Position numbers and translations under genes: made by a program. From Chryseobacterium sp. LJ668 (GTDB taxonomy: Bacteria > Bacteroidota > Bacteroidia > Flavobacteriales > Weeksellaceae), in contig NZ_CP080443.1 in assembly GCF_019613955.1 (NCBI RefSeq), forward strand, positions 868,001-932,000: 64,000 nt of DNA. Reading direction: 5' to 3'. Position 1 is the first letter of the stretch, and every line of letters begins with the position of its first letter. Below, piece by piece: positions 41,058 through 45,284 of the stretch. The notes beneath the pieces were generated by a model, which did not search any database, was not told the DNA's origin, and worked only from the letters and a program-made list of their open reading frames with translations.

Positions 41058-41065
41058 CAAAGTTA
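41058..41065 (-). promoter_or_regulatory. -7 element for the OsmC gene
   Basis: Minus strand reads TAACTTTG, an exact TAnnTTTG, 17 bp before the OsmC start. It overlaps the end of the DUF58 gene. Confidence 0.45.
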
Positions 41066-42385
41066 CAAAATCCCTCTTGCTTTGATCTCCAGATATTTAT
41101 TAATCACCTCCACATTCAGATTTTCCGGAAGCGTATACACAGAATAAATTCCAAATTTTCTTAACTCCTGAATGATGAGTTTTTTCTCAAATTCAAATTT
41201 TTCAGCAATCACTTCGTCATAAATTTCCTGCATACTTTCCGGATTTTTGTGAAGCAAAGTCTGTAATTCTGAATTTTTAAAGAAAACGACAACCAGCAAA
41301 TGGTTTTTGGCAATACCGCGAAGATATTTCATCTGACGGTTTAAGGCGTCCAGTGTTTCGAAATTGGTAAAAAGCAAAATAAGGCTTCTCTGGTTTACAG
41401 AATATTTCACATCCTGATATAACCTGTTGAAATCACTTTCAAAAAAATCTGTTTTGATATTGTACAATGATTCTGAAATTTTTCTCAACTGTCCTGATTT
41501 GTTATCAGCAACAACTTTATTTTCTGCTTTTTTAGAAAAAGTCATCATCCCTGCACGATCACCTTTTTTCAGGATAATATGTGATAAGGCCATAGTTGCA
41601 TTAATCGAATAATCGAGAAGACTCAGTCCTTGGAAAGGCATTTTCATCGTTCTGCCTTTATCAATCAGCATAAAAATCCGCTGTGATTTTTCATCCTGAA
41701 ATTGGTTGACCATGATGCGGTTTGTTTTTGAAGTTGCTTTCCAGTTGATGGTTCTTACGTCATCTCCGGGAACATATTCTTTGATTTGCTCAAACTCCAT
41801 TGTATGACCGAGTTTCCTGATTTTTTTGATTCCGCCGAGCAAAAATTCATTTTGCAAAGCCATCAATTCATACTTTCTTAAATGAATAAACGACGGATAA
41901 GCCGGAAGCATGGCATCTTTCTGAAAAGTAAATCTTTTAGACACAAAACCTATAGGAGATGAAGCAAAAATATTTAAAGCTCCGAAATTGTATTCCCCTC
42001 TTTCTTTCGGCTCCAAAATATATTGAAATAAAGTGTTTTTACCAGATTCAATTTGTTTTTCAATTAAAAAATCTCTCTTCTGAAACTGAAATGGTATTTC
42101 ATCAATTACTTTCGCATTGATTTTGAAACTATACTTATTTTTAATATCAACTTTTACCTGATTTTCGTCGCCATTGGATAGTTTTTCAGGTAAAATTCTT
42201 TGTGCTAACAAGCCATTTTTTTCTCTAAACAAAAGCAGATAATCAACCATCGCGGCAAGGAAAACCAACAATAAAAAAATATGCCCGAAAATCATCAGAA
42301 ACGGAAAGAAAAATGCAAAAACATATAGAATCCCCACTCCTGTGAGCGCGAAAAAAAAGCGATTGTTGATATATAATTTCTTCAT
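41063..42385 (-). CDS. DUF58 domain protein
   Basis: The 440-residue protein has two N-terminal membrane segments (about 8-55) and a cytoplasmic DUF58/vWA-like domain with the core REYVPGDDVRTINWKATS (the form here begins K-E-Y-V-P-G, about residues 202-218) followed by FMLIDKGRTM (about 234-243), which replaces the D-x-S-x-S metal site of true von Willebrand A domains. DUF58 proteins work with MoxR ATPases, here encoded next upstream. The joint role may be cofactor or metal insertion or envelope maturation; it is not settled. It is the last gene of the cluster. Confidence 0.87.
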   Translation of the reverse strand: MKKLYINNRFFFALTGVGILYVFAFFFPFLMIFGHIFLLLVFLAAMVDYLLLFREKNGLLAQRILPEKLSNGDENQVKVDIKNKYSFKINAKVIDEIPFQFQKRDFLIEKQIESGKNTLFQYILEPKERGEYNFGALNIFASSPIGFVSKRFTFQKDAMLPAYPSFIHLRKYELMALQNEFLLGGIKKIRKLGHTMEFEQIKEYVPGDDVRTINWKATSKTNRIMVNQFQDEKSQRIFMLIDKGRTMKMPFQGLSLLDYSINATMALSHIILKKGDRAGMMTFSKKAENKVVADNKSGQLRKISESLYNIKTDFFESDFNRLYQDVKYSVNQRSLILLFTNFETLDALNRQMKYLRGIAKNHLLVVVFFKNSELQTLLHKNPESMQEIYDEVIAEKFEFEKKLIIQELRKFGIYSVYTLPENLNVEVINKYLEIKARGIL

Positions 42386-42450: not shown

Positions 42451-43482
42451 CTATCTCGGAATTTCAATTCCTTCCAAAATCTGACGGATAATTTCATCGG
42501 CAGTCAATCCCTCCATTTCTCTTTCCGGTGACACGATCACTCGGTGTCTTAAAACTGCATAACTCGCCTCCTTGATATCTTCCGGAGTTACAAAATCTCT
42601 TCCCCTCAATGCCGCAAAAGCTTTTGAAGCCGTCAGCAAAGCTAAACTTGCTCTTGGCGAAGCTCCCAAATACAGAAATTGATTTTCTCTCGTGCTGATA
42701 GTGATTTTACCAATATATTCCATCAGTTGAGATTCGACAATGATCTCTTTTACCAATTTTTGATAATGGCTCAATTGCTGAGCGCTGATTACTGGTTGTA
42801 CCACATCTGTTTTATCTTCCTGCCTGCTTTCGTGCTGGTTTTTGATGATGGCAATTTCCTGTTCAAGATTCGGATAACCTACATTTATTTTAAACAAAAA
42901 ACGATCGAGCTGCGCTTCCGGAAGCCTGTATGTTCCTTCATGCTCAATGGGATTCTGTGTAGCCACGACCAAAAAGGGAGCTTCCATTTCATATTGCGTT
43001 CCATCCATTGTGATTTGCCTTTCTTCCATCACCTCAAACAATGCCGACTGCGTTTTGGCTGGTGACCGATTGATCTCATCAATTAATATAAAATGGGAGA
43101 AAATAGGACCTTTCTTAAACTCAAATTCAGAATTTTTTATACTGAAAATTGATGTCCCCAAAATATCTGAAGGCATTAGATCCGGCGTAAATTGTATTCT
43201 GCTGAAGTCAACATCTATTGTTTTTGCCAATAATTTTGCTGTTATTGTTTTTGCAACTCCTGGAACACCTTCAATCAAAACGTGACCATTCGAAAGTAAA
43301 GCCGCCAAAAGATGCTCGATCATATCATGTTGACCGACAATTACTTTTGCAATTTCGGCTTTTACTTTTTCCAGACTTTTGCGAAGTTCGATCATATCAA
43401 TTCTCGGTTCAAATCCGCTTTCTTTTTTATCTAAATTGATAAAATTCTGAGAGTCTATATTTTGGTTTTCTTGGTTTACCAT
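42451..43482 (-). CDS. MoxR-family AAA+ ATPase
   Basis: The 343-residue chaperone-like ATPase has Walker A GVPGVAKT (72-79), Walker B FILIDEINRS (131-140), the conserved ATQNPIEHEGTYRLPEAQLDRF block (sensor 1 and arginine finger region, starting about 173) and the C-terminal lid with LGASPRASLALL. The first 30 residues form a polar extension. MoxR proteins remodel partners that contain vWA-like domains, such as the DUF58 protein encoded next. A REP-transposase unit lies between this gene and DUF4350, and its start is 19 bp from the first REP copy. Confidence 0.93.
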   Translation of the reverse strand: MVNQENQNIDSQNFINLDKKESGFEPRIDMIELRKSLEKVKAEIAKVIVGQHDMIEHLLAALLSNGHVLIEGVPGVAKTITAKLLAKTIDVDFSRIQFTPDLMPSDILGTSIFSIKNSEFEFKKGPIFSHFILIDEINRSPAKTQSALFEVMEERQITMDGTQYEMEAPFLVVATQNPIEHEGTYRLPEAQLDRFLFKINVGYPNLEQEIAIIKNQHESRQEDKTDVVQPVISAQQLSHYQKLVKEIIVESQLMEYIGKITISTRENQFLYLGASPRASLALLTASKAFAALRGRDFVTPEDIKEASYAVLRHRVIVSPEREMEGLTADEIIRQILEGIEIPR

Positions 43483-43501: not shown

Positions 43502-43517
43502 GAGCTCCGTAGGAGCG
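43502..43517 (+). repeat. REP copy 1, outer left
   Basis: GAGCTCCGTAGGAGCG, 19 bp upstream of the moxR start. It is followed by AAATGTTTGTA, which is mirrored at the right end of the unit. Confidence 0.85.
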
Positions 43518-43551
43518 AAATGTTTGTAGTTTTAGCTTGAAACGGTTAGTG

Positions 43552-43567
43552 GAGCTCCGTAGGAGCG
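43552..43567 (+). repeat. REP copy 2, inner left
   Basis: Identical 16-mer, 34 bp after copy 1, ending 5 bp before the transposase stop codon. Confidence 0.85.
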
Positions 43568-43572
43568 GCACT

Positions 43573-44040
43573 TTAATCTTCATCAAATTCAAACATATAT
43601 TTTTCTTCGTATTGTATTTCAAATTTATTTAAAAGTTCAATATACTCTTCTTTAAAGCTTTTCCTTTTGTGATGTTCTTCTTGGTTAAGTATATAACTAA
43701 CAACTTTATCAATCTGACTTTTAGAATAAGAAAAAGCGCCGTAACCTTCCTGCCAGTTAAATTTTCCATTGACCCATTTTTGTTCATTAATAAATCTGGA
43801 AGAATTTGCTTTAATGTCACGAACAAAATCTGATATTTTAAGATTCAAACTATTAAATCCCACAAGAAGGTGAATATGGTCAGGATTAGCATAAATTGCT
43901 AATAATTTTTGGTTGCTATTTTTAATAATTCCTGAAATGTATTTGTGCAAATCTTCTCTTTTTGAATTATGAATCAGATTTTGCCTTCCCTTTACAGCGA
44001 AGATCAATTGAATGTAAATCTGAATATATGTATTTGCCAT
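43573..44040 (-). CDS. REP-associated tyrosine transposase (IS200-like, RAYT)
   Basis: The 155-residue protein is a Y1 single-strand DNA transposase of the IS200/TnpA-REP type. The HUH metal motif is PDHIHLLV (His 55 and His 57). The candidate nucleophile is Tyr 116 in VVSYILNQEEHH, with the companion block WQEGYGAFSYSKSQID (96-111). Length and motifs match chromosomal RAYTs, which excise or copy REP hairpins. There is no second gene (no TnpB). Flanking REP copies show it is probably the enzyme acting on this 16-mer. The reading frame is intact. Confidence 0.92.
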   Translation of the reverse strand: MANTYIQIYIQLIFAVKGRQNLIHNSKREDLHKYISGIIKNSNQKLLAIYANPDHIHLLVGFNSLNLKISDFVRDIKANSSRFINEQKWVNGKFNWQEGYGAFSYSKSQIDKVVSYILNQEEHHKRKSFKEEYIELLNKFEIQYEEKYMFEFDED

Positions 44041-44048
44041 TTCTGTAT

Positions 44049-44064
44049 CGCTCCTACGGAGCTC
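44049..44064 (-). repeat. REP copy 3, inner right
   Basis: CGCTCCTACGGAGCTC, the reverse complement of copies 1 and 2, 8 bp before the transposase start codon. Confidence 0.85.
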
Positions 44065-44097
44065 AATTTATAATTATCGTTTTAGTTACAAACATTC

Positions 44098-44113
44098 CGC
44101 TCCTACGGAGCTC
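44098..44113 (-). repeat. REP copy 4, outer right
   Basis: Identical to copy 3. It is preceded by TACAAACATTC, which mirrors the sequence after copy 1, and lies 13 bp downstream of the DUF4350 stop. Confidence 0.85.
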
Positions 44114-44126
44114 CCCTTCTAATCTA

Positions 44127-45284
44127 TCACTTCAATATATCATCCAAAAGTTTATTCATTCTCGCCAGATCTTCCTTCATCACACTTGCATAGGGATCTT
44201 GAGCCTCTTTTATTAAAACAACCGCTTCATTAATCGTTTCAATATTTTTTCCGGTTTTCAACTGAAGTTTTTTTGCGAACTCTTCATCCAAATTTTGCGT
44301 ATCAATCAATAGATCGAGTCTTACTCTGTTTAGAAAATACTGTGCTTTTTTTGCCATCATATCATGAAAATCTCCTTCCTGCAGATAAAGATTCCCTATA
44401 CTTTTTACAAAATCGACGGAAGTGTTCTTTAACGGTTCAAGAATGGGAACGATTCGCTGTTTTCTTTTTGCATTAAAAAAGATAAACAAAATCAACCCAC
44501 CCAACAAAAGCCACCAAGCATATTTCAGAGCCGGGTTTCCTAAAATAAAACGCATAAAAAACCTTGACTCTTTGGTATTCGATTCTACAAACCAAAGCGT
44601 TTCTCTATCATCAAGATAAGAAAAAACATCTTGTGCATATTTTGTATTTCCGGATTTTAGAAGGTAATAATTAGTCAAAAATAGCGGTTCACAGTGAATG
44701 TAGATTTTTCCTTTCCCAAAATTTGCTTTAATGAAATTAGCCTGATCGGTATTTTCTGCCTCCACTGTTTTTCCTAAAGCCTGAACACCTGGTTTTATAT
44801 AGGAAAAGCCTCGTCCGGAAGGAAATTTATCTAATTTAATAAAATCATTATGATATTTTTTATCGGTCAGCTTTAATACGTTATTGTCTTCAAATGAAAT
44901 CTGAGAATCGTAAAAACCAATGCTGTCTGAGATTTCTTTTGGCATTTTACTCATAATCAGCATTGCGTCAGATCCTTTATAAACCTCATCAAGGATCTTC
45001 TTCCAGGATTGTATGTCAATATCACTTTCAATCACTAAGATATTGTGGGCATCTTTTTTATTTTGATTATAATAATCGTAAGCGGTAACATCAATTTTTT
45101 TGAGGTTATTTTTAAATAAATCTTTTACTTCCTGATTAAAAACAAATAATCCGAAAGGTGATTTTTCATTCACATCAAAATTTTTTCGCCAGTCTACAAC
45201 CTCTTTTTTATTAACTTCAAGCAACGCCAAAATCACCATGATAATGATGAAAATTAAAGCATATATTTTGAACGTTTTATTCAT
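44127..45284 (-). CDS. DUF4350 domain protein
   Basis: The 385-residue protein has an N-terminal membrane segment (about 6-22), a periplasmic domain of the DUF4350 kind (about 35-235: FGLFVFNQEVKDLFKNN ... ILVIESDIDIQSWKKIL), a second membrane span (about 260-278, YAWWLLLGGLILFIFFN) and a cytoplasmic helical tail. The domain looks like a degenerate glutamine-amidotransferase fold. It regularly accompanies MoxR and DUF58 in Bacteroidota. The job is unknown. It is 11 bp downstream of the DUF4129 gene, and the REP unit separates it from moxR. Confidence 0.82.
   Translation of the reverse strand: MNKTFKIYALIFIIIMVILALLEVNKKEVVDWRKNFDVNEKSPFGLFVFNQEVKDLFKNNLKKIDVTAYDYYNQNKKDAHNILVIESDIDIQSWKKILDEVYKGSDAMLIMSKMPKEISDSIGFYDSQISFEDNNVLKLTDKKYHNDFIKLDKFPSGRGFSYIKPGVQALGKTVEAENTDQANFIKANFGKGKIYIHCEPLFLTNYYLLKSGNTKYAQDVFSYLDDRETLWFVESNTKESRFFMRFILGNPALKYAWWLLLGGLILFIFFNAKRKQRIVPILEPLKNTSVDFVKSIGNLYLQEGDFHDMMAKKAQYFLNRVRLDLLIDTQNLDEEFAKKLQLKTGKNIETINEAVVLIKEAQDPYASVMKEDLARMNKLLDDILK

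Follow-up and report, generated by a model that had tools for sequence, protein, structure and literature searches.

How does a single transposase gene come to lie between pairs of short palindromic repeats that also occur elsewhere in the genome, and what are these repeats to the enzyme? The question is raised by a locus of Chryseobacterium sp. LJ668, situated in a stretch of 64,000 nucleotides (nt) of contig NZ_CP080443.1 (positions 868,001 to 932,000), which was analysed as a whole and is referred to as the window. A short Y1 transposase gene is bracketed there by repeats resembling repetitive extragenic palindromic (REP) sequences. The original prediction, made from the sequence, described a self-contained mobile unit consisting of REPs and a REP-associated tyrosine transposase (RAYT). 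The answer that we consider likely is a different one: the gene is a resident Y1 (HUH) transposase gene of subclass 1.2, and it is accompanied by its own family of miniature palindromic hairpin doublets. Furthermore, we infer cleavage, single-stranded intermediates and movement of these repeats by the enzyme.

Facing doublets around a subclass 1.2 gene

The 16-mer GAGCTCCGTAGGAGCG occurs in four mismatch-free copies in the window, and all of them bracket the transposase gene, two on each side as predicted. No further site was found in the window at up to three mismatches. The mean number of copies in shuffled windows was 0.06 and no shuffle reached four; a chance origin of the four copies was therefore rejected. 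The outer arms form the predicted 27-nt inverted repeat, which is 96% complementary with one mismatch. The following features make up the unit (coordinates in the window, strand, description):

43502..43571, plus: doublet downstream of the gene, with outer hairpin 1 and its tail, spacer, and inner hairpin 2 followed by GCAC; folds as two hairpins, z -3.2
43502..43517, plus: REP 16-mer, hairpin 1 (GCTCC-GTA-GGAGC) of the downstream doublet, from the exact 16-mer search
43518..43529, plus: hairpin-1 tail AAATGTTTGTAG of the downstream doublet
43552..43567, plus: REP 16-mer, hairpin 2 of the downstream doublet, from the exact 16-mer search
43573..44040, minus: tnpA-like gene, Y1 HUH transposase assigned to subclass 1.2, 155 amino acids, from the open reading frame (ORF), Pfam, NCBIfam and the motif key given in PMC6006769
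44045..44113, minus: doublet upstream of the gene, inverted relative to the other, with outer hairpin 1 and its tail, spacer, and inner hairpin 2 followed by ATAC; z -2.4
44049..44064, minus: REP 16-mer, hairpin 2 of the upstream doublet, from the exact 16-mer search
44086..44097, minus: hairpin-1 tail GAATGTTTGTAA of the upstream doublet
44098..44113, minus: REP 16-mer, hairpin 1 of the upstream doublet, from the exact 16-mer search
43502..43528, no strand: left arm of the 27-nt outer inverted repeat
44087..44113, no strand: right arm of the 27-nt outer inverted repeat

Each flank is thus an ordered doublet, composed of hairpin 1, a tail of the TGTTTGTAG type, a spacer of about 20-22 nt, and hairpin 2 with a short end. 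The hairpins within one doublet are direct and about 50 bp apart, and the two doublets face each other across the gene. Their folds (z scores above) were computed as single-stranded DNA on the strand of the doublet.

The transposase ORF is intact, and its product matches Pfam Y1_Tnp (E 6.8e-23). The HIH motif was placed at H55-I-H57 and the tyrosine at Y116 by alignment with the solved transposase chains 2fyx and 2xm3 (YIxxQ stretch), in agreement with the predicted short, intact Y1 gene. The RAYT label, in contrast, had to be given up. The protein passes the NCBIfam IS200/IS605 model NF033573 (61.7 bits, cut-off 55) and fails REP_Tyr_transpos, the model for REP-associated tyrosine transposases (29.7 bits, cut-off 80). 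Where RAYTs carry the motif NP(L/V)(R/K)xG beside the tyrosine, as given in Nunvar (2010, PMC2817692), this protein holds NQEEHHKR. Moreover, GTAG lies about 9 nt 3' of the hairpin here, whereas the GTAG or GTGG of the RAYT type stands at the 5' foot. RAYT identity was rejected on these three grounds.

The motifs of the protein are DHIH, NWQ and Y116-ILNQ-EE-H123-H124. In the passages of Quentin (2018, PMC6006769) devoted to it, subclass 1.2 of TnpA-Y1 is keyed by DH[IV]H, WQ and Y---Q--HH, together with low copy number and occurrence in Bacteroidetes or Cyanobacteria. By its motifs, the 155-residue protein is assigned to this subclass. Copy number and phylum agree, as the genome holds one match and the closest named relatives among the best 80 of 228 are Bacteroidota. 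The same passages describe subclass 1.2 as generally lacking the typical terminal secondary structures of IS200, whereas paired hairpins flank 91 of the 118 members examined here on both sides. Since these hairpins are not typical IS200 ends and the absence is only a general trait in the paper, the observation extends the description of the subclass and the membership is kept.

Hairpins, tails and transposases across loci

The loci compared came from three sources: 80 from named relatives (the best 80 of 228), 30 from the LJ668 genome, its congeners and relatives in the order, and 28 additional ones from the phylum. Three broken or partial genes (L128, L129, L131) and three of at most 41% identity (L130, L132, L133) were dropped from the first 110, as were duplicates, which left 123 loci. 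Five of them were without 1.1 kb flanks, and the flank counts were made on the other 118. The hosts belong to Bacteroidota and Ignavibacteriota, with one Acidobacteriota bin.

A flank hairpin was defined as a perfect 5-bp GC-rich stem with a 3-nt loop. Such a hairpin lies within 100 nt of the gene upstream in 100 of the 118 loci and downstream in 105, and 91 loci have one on either side. The same search at 500 nt yielded 7 upstream, 5 downstream and 1 on both sides, and mononucleotide shuffles gave 1.2, 1.5 and 0.02, respectively. Among the hairpins listed by position, most lie near -25 and -75 upstream and near +6 and +56 downstream of the gene. For a covariation test, hairpin 1 was picked by its tail alone, pairing not being required; a readable tail was available in 70 of the 123 loci upstream and in 69 downstream. 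The stem cells were paired in 344 of 350 cases upstream and 325 of 345 downstream, with exchanges such as CG/TA and GC/AT, against 30-54% in controls with the partner slid by 1 to 3 columns. On this comparative evidence, the hairpin structure is judged to be under selection.

A requirement for perfect stems and a tail of the GTT type gave 154 distinct doublets from all loci; the "other" (off-gene) group among them includes some gene-flanking ones, e.g., L026 and L027. The pitch of the doublets is 47-55 nt, and 49-52 nt in 124 of the 154. Sequence information is near background to the left of hairpin 1, except for one A, and fades about 8 nt past hairpin 2. This drop at both edges was not asked for in the selection; it marks the likely ends of the element. 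The consensus reads A-(hairpin 1)-GNN(A/C)(T/C)GTTTGTAG, then about 20 nt, then A-(hairpin 2)-GRCAC or GACCTG(TT). GTTAATAG takes the place of GTTTGTAG in a sister transposase clade, which is located at the fadB-fadA junction in Chryseobacterium and Flavobacterium and accounts for 57 of the 118 loci.

The tails could be read in 87 of the 123 loci. Three main types, ATGTTTGTA, CTGTTTGTA and CTGTTAATA, were labelled in 79 loci; the 8 with rarer types and the 36 unreadable ones were omitted. On the tree of the 123 proteins, the tail types need two changes, which is the minimum, compared with a mean of 30.6 for shuffled labels (0 of 200 shuffles as low). Away from the gene, tails were readable in eight of the nine other places of the LJ668 genome; all eight are TTTGTAG-like, six with exactly TTTGT. 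In congeners with a gene of the fadB-fadA clade, all 17 off-gene tails read TTAATAG or TTCATAG; two of the 17 places lie close to a gene remnant. The off-gene tail type is associated with the type of the resident gene (p 9e-7).

Presence of the repeats is also associated with presence of the gene. In the phylum, 395 genomes were searched for the 14-mer GCTCCGTAGGAGCG, and it was found in 26 of 106 carriers and in 21 of 289 others (odds ratio 4.1, p 1.2e-5, uncorrected for kinship). Within the genus, off-gene tailed copies are present in 14 of 25 carriers, a number that includes three broken or partial genes (G032, G040, G041), and in 5 of 23 others (p 0.02, likewise uncorrected). Four genomes (G204, G207, G116, G441) hold 6-12 copies of the 14-mer and no class-1.2 gene at E 1e-30; a lost gene, an unseen gene or another enzyme may lie behind them.

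Turnover of the doublets and history of the gene

In the LJ668 genome (3.47 Mb), the 16-mer has 11 exact copies and 13 at up to one mismatch, against none for the reversed control. Outside the unit, REPs occupy nine places, none of which overlaps an ORF of at least 60 amino acids starting with ATG. The genome-wide search put forward in the original prediction has thus borne out a REP-like family. Nine of ten matches at two mismatches were discarded, because they repeat in three equal sets of about 6 kb in length; these sets are presumably parts of ribosomal operons.

The places in LJ668 were compared, where readable, with C. kimseyorum, C. aahli and C. limigenitum. Doublets at L007, L010 and L020 are shared in position with at least one of the three, and L005, L008 and L009 are without counterpart in the relatives read. 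These relatives are too divergent for exact insertion ends to be obtained from the intergenic alignments. Counts of units differ between genomes. The L006 spacer holds three units in LJ668, about six in C. kimseyorum, one in C. aahli and none in C. limigenitum (by eye). Another spacer lies upstream of a gene that we take to be carA-like. It was read by eye in 16 congeners, with no unit in four, one in two, two in five, three in two and more in three; the largest array has at least eight units. In G037, this spacer contains four tandem 145-bp blocks, and G002 is one whole unit apart from G030, G020, G023 and G043. The doublets turn over by whole units. In addition, near-identical hairpin repeats at L326 (G346) and L353/L359 (G037) alternate with short spacers in tandem arrays, whose outline is like that of clustered regularly interspaced short palindromic repeats (CRISPR); the last repeat of the L326 array is without GTAG.

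The gene is present as a single copy in LJ668. Its neighbours, all co-oriented with it, are those named in the original prediction, with the DUF4350 assignment under the Pfam cut-off:

44127..45284, minus: DUF4350-like protein, upstream neighbour (PF14258, 27.5 bits, cut-off 30.4)
42451..43482, minus: moxR AAA+ ATPase, downstream neighbour (ORF and Pfam)
41063..42385, minus: DUF58 protein, further context beyond moxR (ORF and Pfam)

The DUF4350-moxR junction was taken from 48 genomes of the genus including LJ668; one is cut by a contig end, leaving 47 readable. The gene is found there in four (G000, G011, G001, G018), a solo doublet in one (G040) and neither in 42. The genome with the solo doublet (L171) is the sister of two with the gene at this site, and either a loss or a separate doublet insertion would explain it. 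The comparison with empty sites that had been proposed for this locus gave a divided answer: most congeners (43 of 47) lack the gene at this site, but the place is old and shared. Indeed, ten genomes from Chryseobacterium and the Epilithonimonas caeni group have the gene in this interval, namely all eight rows of the LJ668 transposase clade (including Epilithonimonas caeni and three allied genomes) plus G001 and G018. The gene stands directly between DUF4350 and moxR in nine of the ten; at L028, about 0.9 kb separates DUF4350 from it. As the same interval is occupied across the clade and in G001 and G018, the insertion is not recent. The single gene copy in LJ668 and the one interval shared by ten genomes speak against the self-contained mobile unit that had been proposed. 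Neither the moxR nor the fadB-fadA junction is informative as an empty site, because the spacers are replaced whole.

Host and transposase trees conflict. The Epilithonimonas group falls outside Chryseobacterium by DUF4350 and inside it by the transposase, where its four rows nest with C. aahli and C. kimseyorum (support 96/88, bootstrap not fully settled). There, the transposase is 79-83% identical, compared with 58-63% for DUF4350, and third positions agree, with synonymous sites near saturation and the fourfold-site comparison saturated. MoxR is 83-85% identical, no less than the transposase, so that the identity case for a transfer rests on DUF4350 and third positions. On account of this conflict, passage of the unit between hosts is probable as well, and we tentatively propose at least one transfer into the same address in another host. 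At fadB-fadA, G009 and G019 retain decayed gene remnants, and the gene of G041 is broken. Several homologues are present in some genomes of the phylum.

Mechanism, rivals and companion elements

The preferred explanation, a resident gene with its own doublets, can be put as a mechanism. A TnpA dimer would bind both same-strand hairpins of a doublet while the strand is single, like IS200/IS605 TnpA on left and right ends, and would cleave beside the tail. The unit of about 50-75 nt would then be moved or duplicated into spacers, often beside existing units, and insertion of this kind would lead to tandem arrays. The gene is enclosed by inverted doublets rather than by a single left-right pair, and for this reason it would mostly stay in place while the doublets turn over. 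Read-through expression is suggested by the co-orientation of the upstream neighbour with the gene in 113 of the 118 loci and of both neighbours in 96 (longest-ORF test); the LJ668 gene is probably transcribed from DUF4350 in this way. The unit may influence expression of moxR and DUF58, as the original prediction proposed; promoter-like sites in the unit are at shuffle level, and the single terminator-like match within it on that strand is weak. A wider proposal is plausible but, in our estimate, falls somewhat short of an even chance. Subclass 1.2 would be the motor of a separate, phylum-wide REP-like class made of direct-hairpin doublets, i.e., miniature IS200-type left/right pairs, parallel to the inverted REPINs (REP doublets forming hairpins) of RAYTs. 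The doublets would spread beside existing hairpins into short repeat-spacer arrays, and the gene would be held at few operon addresses, re-entering the same address in other hosts.

Known systems resemble this arrangement in part. The motifs, the length of 155 amino acids, the low copy number and the phylum are those of subclass 1.2, which the paired hairpins set apart from its description. RAYTs with their REPs, REPINs and bacterial interspersed mosaic elements (BIMEs) likewise have inverted palindromic repeats flanking the gene and dispersed in spacers, as well as co-evolution of repeat and enzyme. In contrast to REPs and REPINs, the paired hairpins here are direct, not inverted, and the stems are only about 5 bp long. 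IS200/IS605 elements, such as ISDra2 and IS608, share the NCBIfam model, the HUH motif, the tyrosine and glutamine, and two same-strand hairpins per minimal element. They differ in that the gene here is not enclosed by one left and one right subterminal hairpin but by four hairpins in two inverted doublets, is present once rather than in several copies per genome, and has no second gene within the unit. The subclass 2.6 TnpA of Bacteroidetes shares the phylum and atypical hairpins with genomic copies, but its motifs, NH[LIV]H and YIH[QN]NP in Table 1 of PMC6006769, are unlike those of the 155-residue protein. Searches of the open-licence PMC literature yielded no report of the doublet repeats and none linking palindromes to subclass 1.2.

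Three other explanations were weighed. The gene and both flanking REP pairs could move as one autonomous element that was recently inserted here, as the 27-nt outer inverted repeat, the 43 of 47 congener junctions without the gene and the several homologues in some genomes would suggest. The tree conflict, with transposases more alike than DUF4350 in the Epilithonimonas group, would also fit. We nevertheless consider this unlikely: LJ668 has one gene copy, the same interval is filled in the eight rows of its clade and in G001 and G018, the second clade has been kept at fadB-fadA, and MoxR is no less conserved than the transposase. A role of the hairpins in RNA or transcription (terminator, attenuator, stability) of a domesticated nuclease gene, with no part as transposase substrates, was also considered. 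The near-constant distances of the hairpins from the start and stop codons favour it, as do the overlap of the terminator-like match with the upstream outer hairpin and the co-orientation of both neighbours in 96 of the 118 loci. However, doublets of the same order also stand solo in other spacers, the tails are conserved besides the stems and follow the transposase type, and the downstream hairpins lack a run of T behind them on the gene strand. This role is quite improbable.

An old, passive repeat family that grows and shrinks by recombination or slippage, with the gene as a passenger, would account for arrays differing by whole units, such as the four 145-bp blocks in G037 and the one unit fewer in G002 than in its neighbours, and for the many copies in some genomes in which no gene was detected. 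From slippage alone, one would not expect copies in unrelated spacers (L005, L008 and L009 among them, without counterpart in the relatives read) or tails congruent with transposases, and we hold this explanation to be very unlikely. Several observations nonetheless weigh against the resident gene with its own doublets. Movement itself was not seen, and the genomes compared offered no empty site with exact ends at the level of strains. Array growth by whole units could arise by direct-repeat recombination without a transposase. The copy number in LJ668 is low, the 57 loci at fadB-fadA are one address in related genomes and not independent events, and near-copies among the proteins of the tree help the tail result. 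The C. kimseyorum array at the L006 place mixes both tail types, as one exception. The exact 14-mer is absent from 80 of the 106 carriers, and two of the 21 non-carriers that have it hold 10 and 12 copies. Finally, the phylum pattern GTAN8CTGTTTGTAG is mostly background, with hits in 59 of the 395 genomes against about 34 of 395 (counted by eye) for the control.

As the description of subclass 1.2 placed it near IS200 TnpA, generally with no recognisable ends, its substrate had been open. The doublets offer a concrete candidate substrate, with defined ends that follow the enzyme phylogeny. They may, in addition, provide a second example after RAYTs in which a Y1 transposase has become resident and maintains a small family of repeats. 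Some of the short palindromic repeats in the spacers of Bacteroidota, including ones within operons, would be explained by them as well.

Other elements are found in the same spacers. The fadB-fadA junction was surveyed in 36 of the 48 congeners (12 with a known gene were omitted) and in two named genomes; 30 of the 38 junctions were read, that of LJ668 not among them. Without a transposase unit, 16 of the 30 are 430-470 bp long, and 12 of the 30 carry an ORF of the type MHNFRDLEVWTKSMKLCK (L267-L290), which in our view resembles a four-helix-bundle protein. Borders such as GTAAAATGTAAAAAGTATT and AATACATTTTACGTAA recur at these cassettes, and similar borders without the ORF are present in the carA spacer (L354, L356, L357). 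Two families of elements seem to use these spacers in common. Moreover, different hairpins were noted at both addresses of the gene. A hairpin with a GTCCC stem and GAA, AAA or AAC loops is present in 10 of the 47 moxR junctions (L169, L170, L173, L179, L183, L185, L186, L193, L198, L200), and a GCCAC-GAA-GTGGC hairpin in 3 of the 30 fadB-fadA junctions (L274, L286, L291). Both may belong to more distant Y1 transposases of the genus. At the L005 place (see also L244 and L245), LJ668, C. kimseyorum and C. aahli have in common an element some 100 bp in length next to the LJ668 doublet; it ends in GCTGCGATCCGGGCTAT in LJ668 and is lacking in C. limigenitum.
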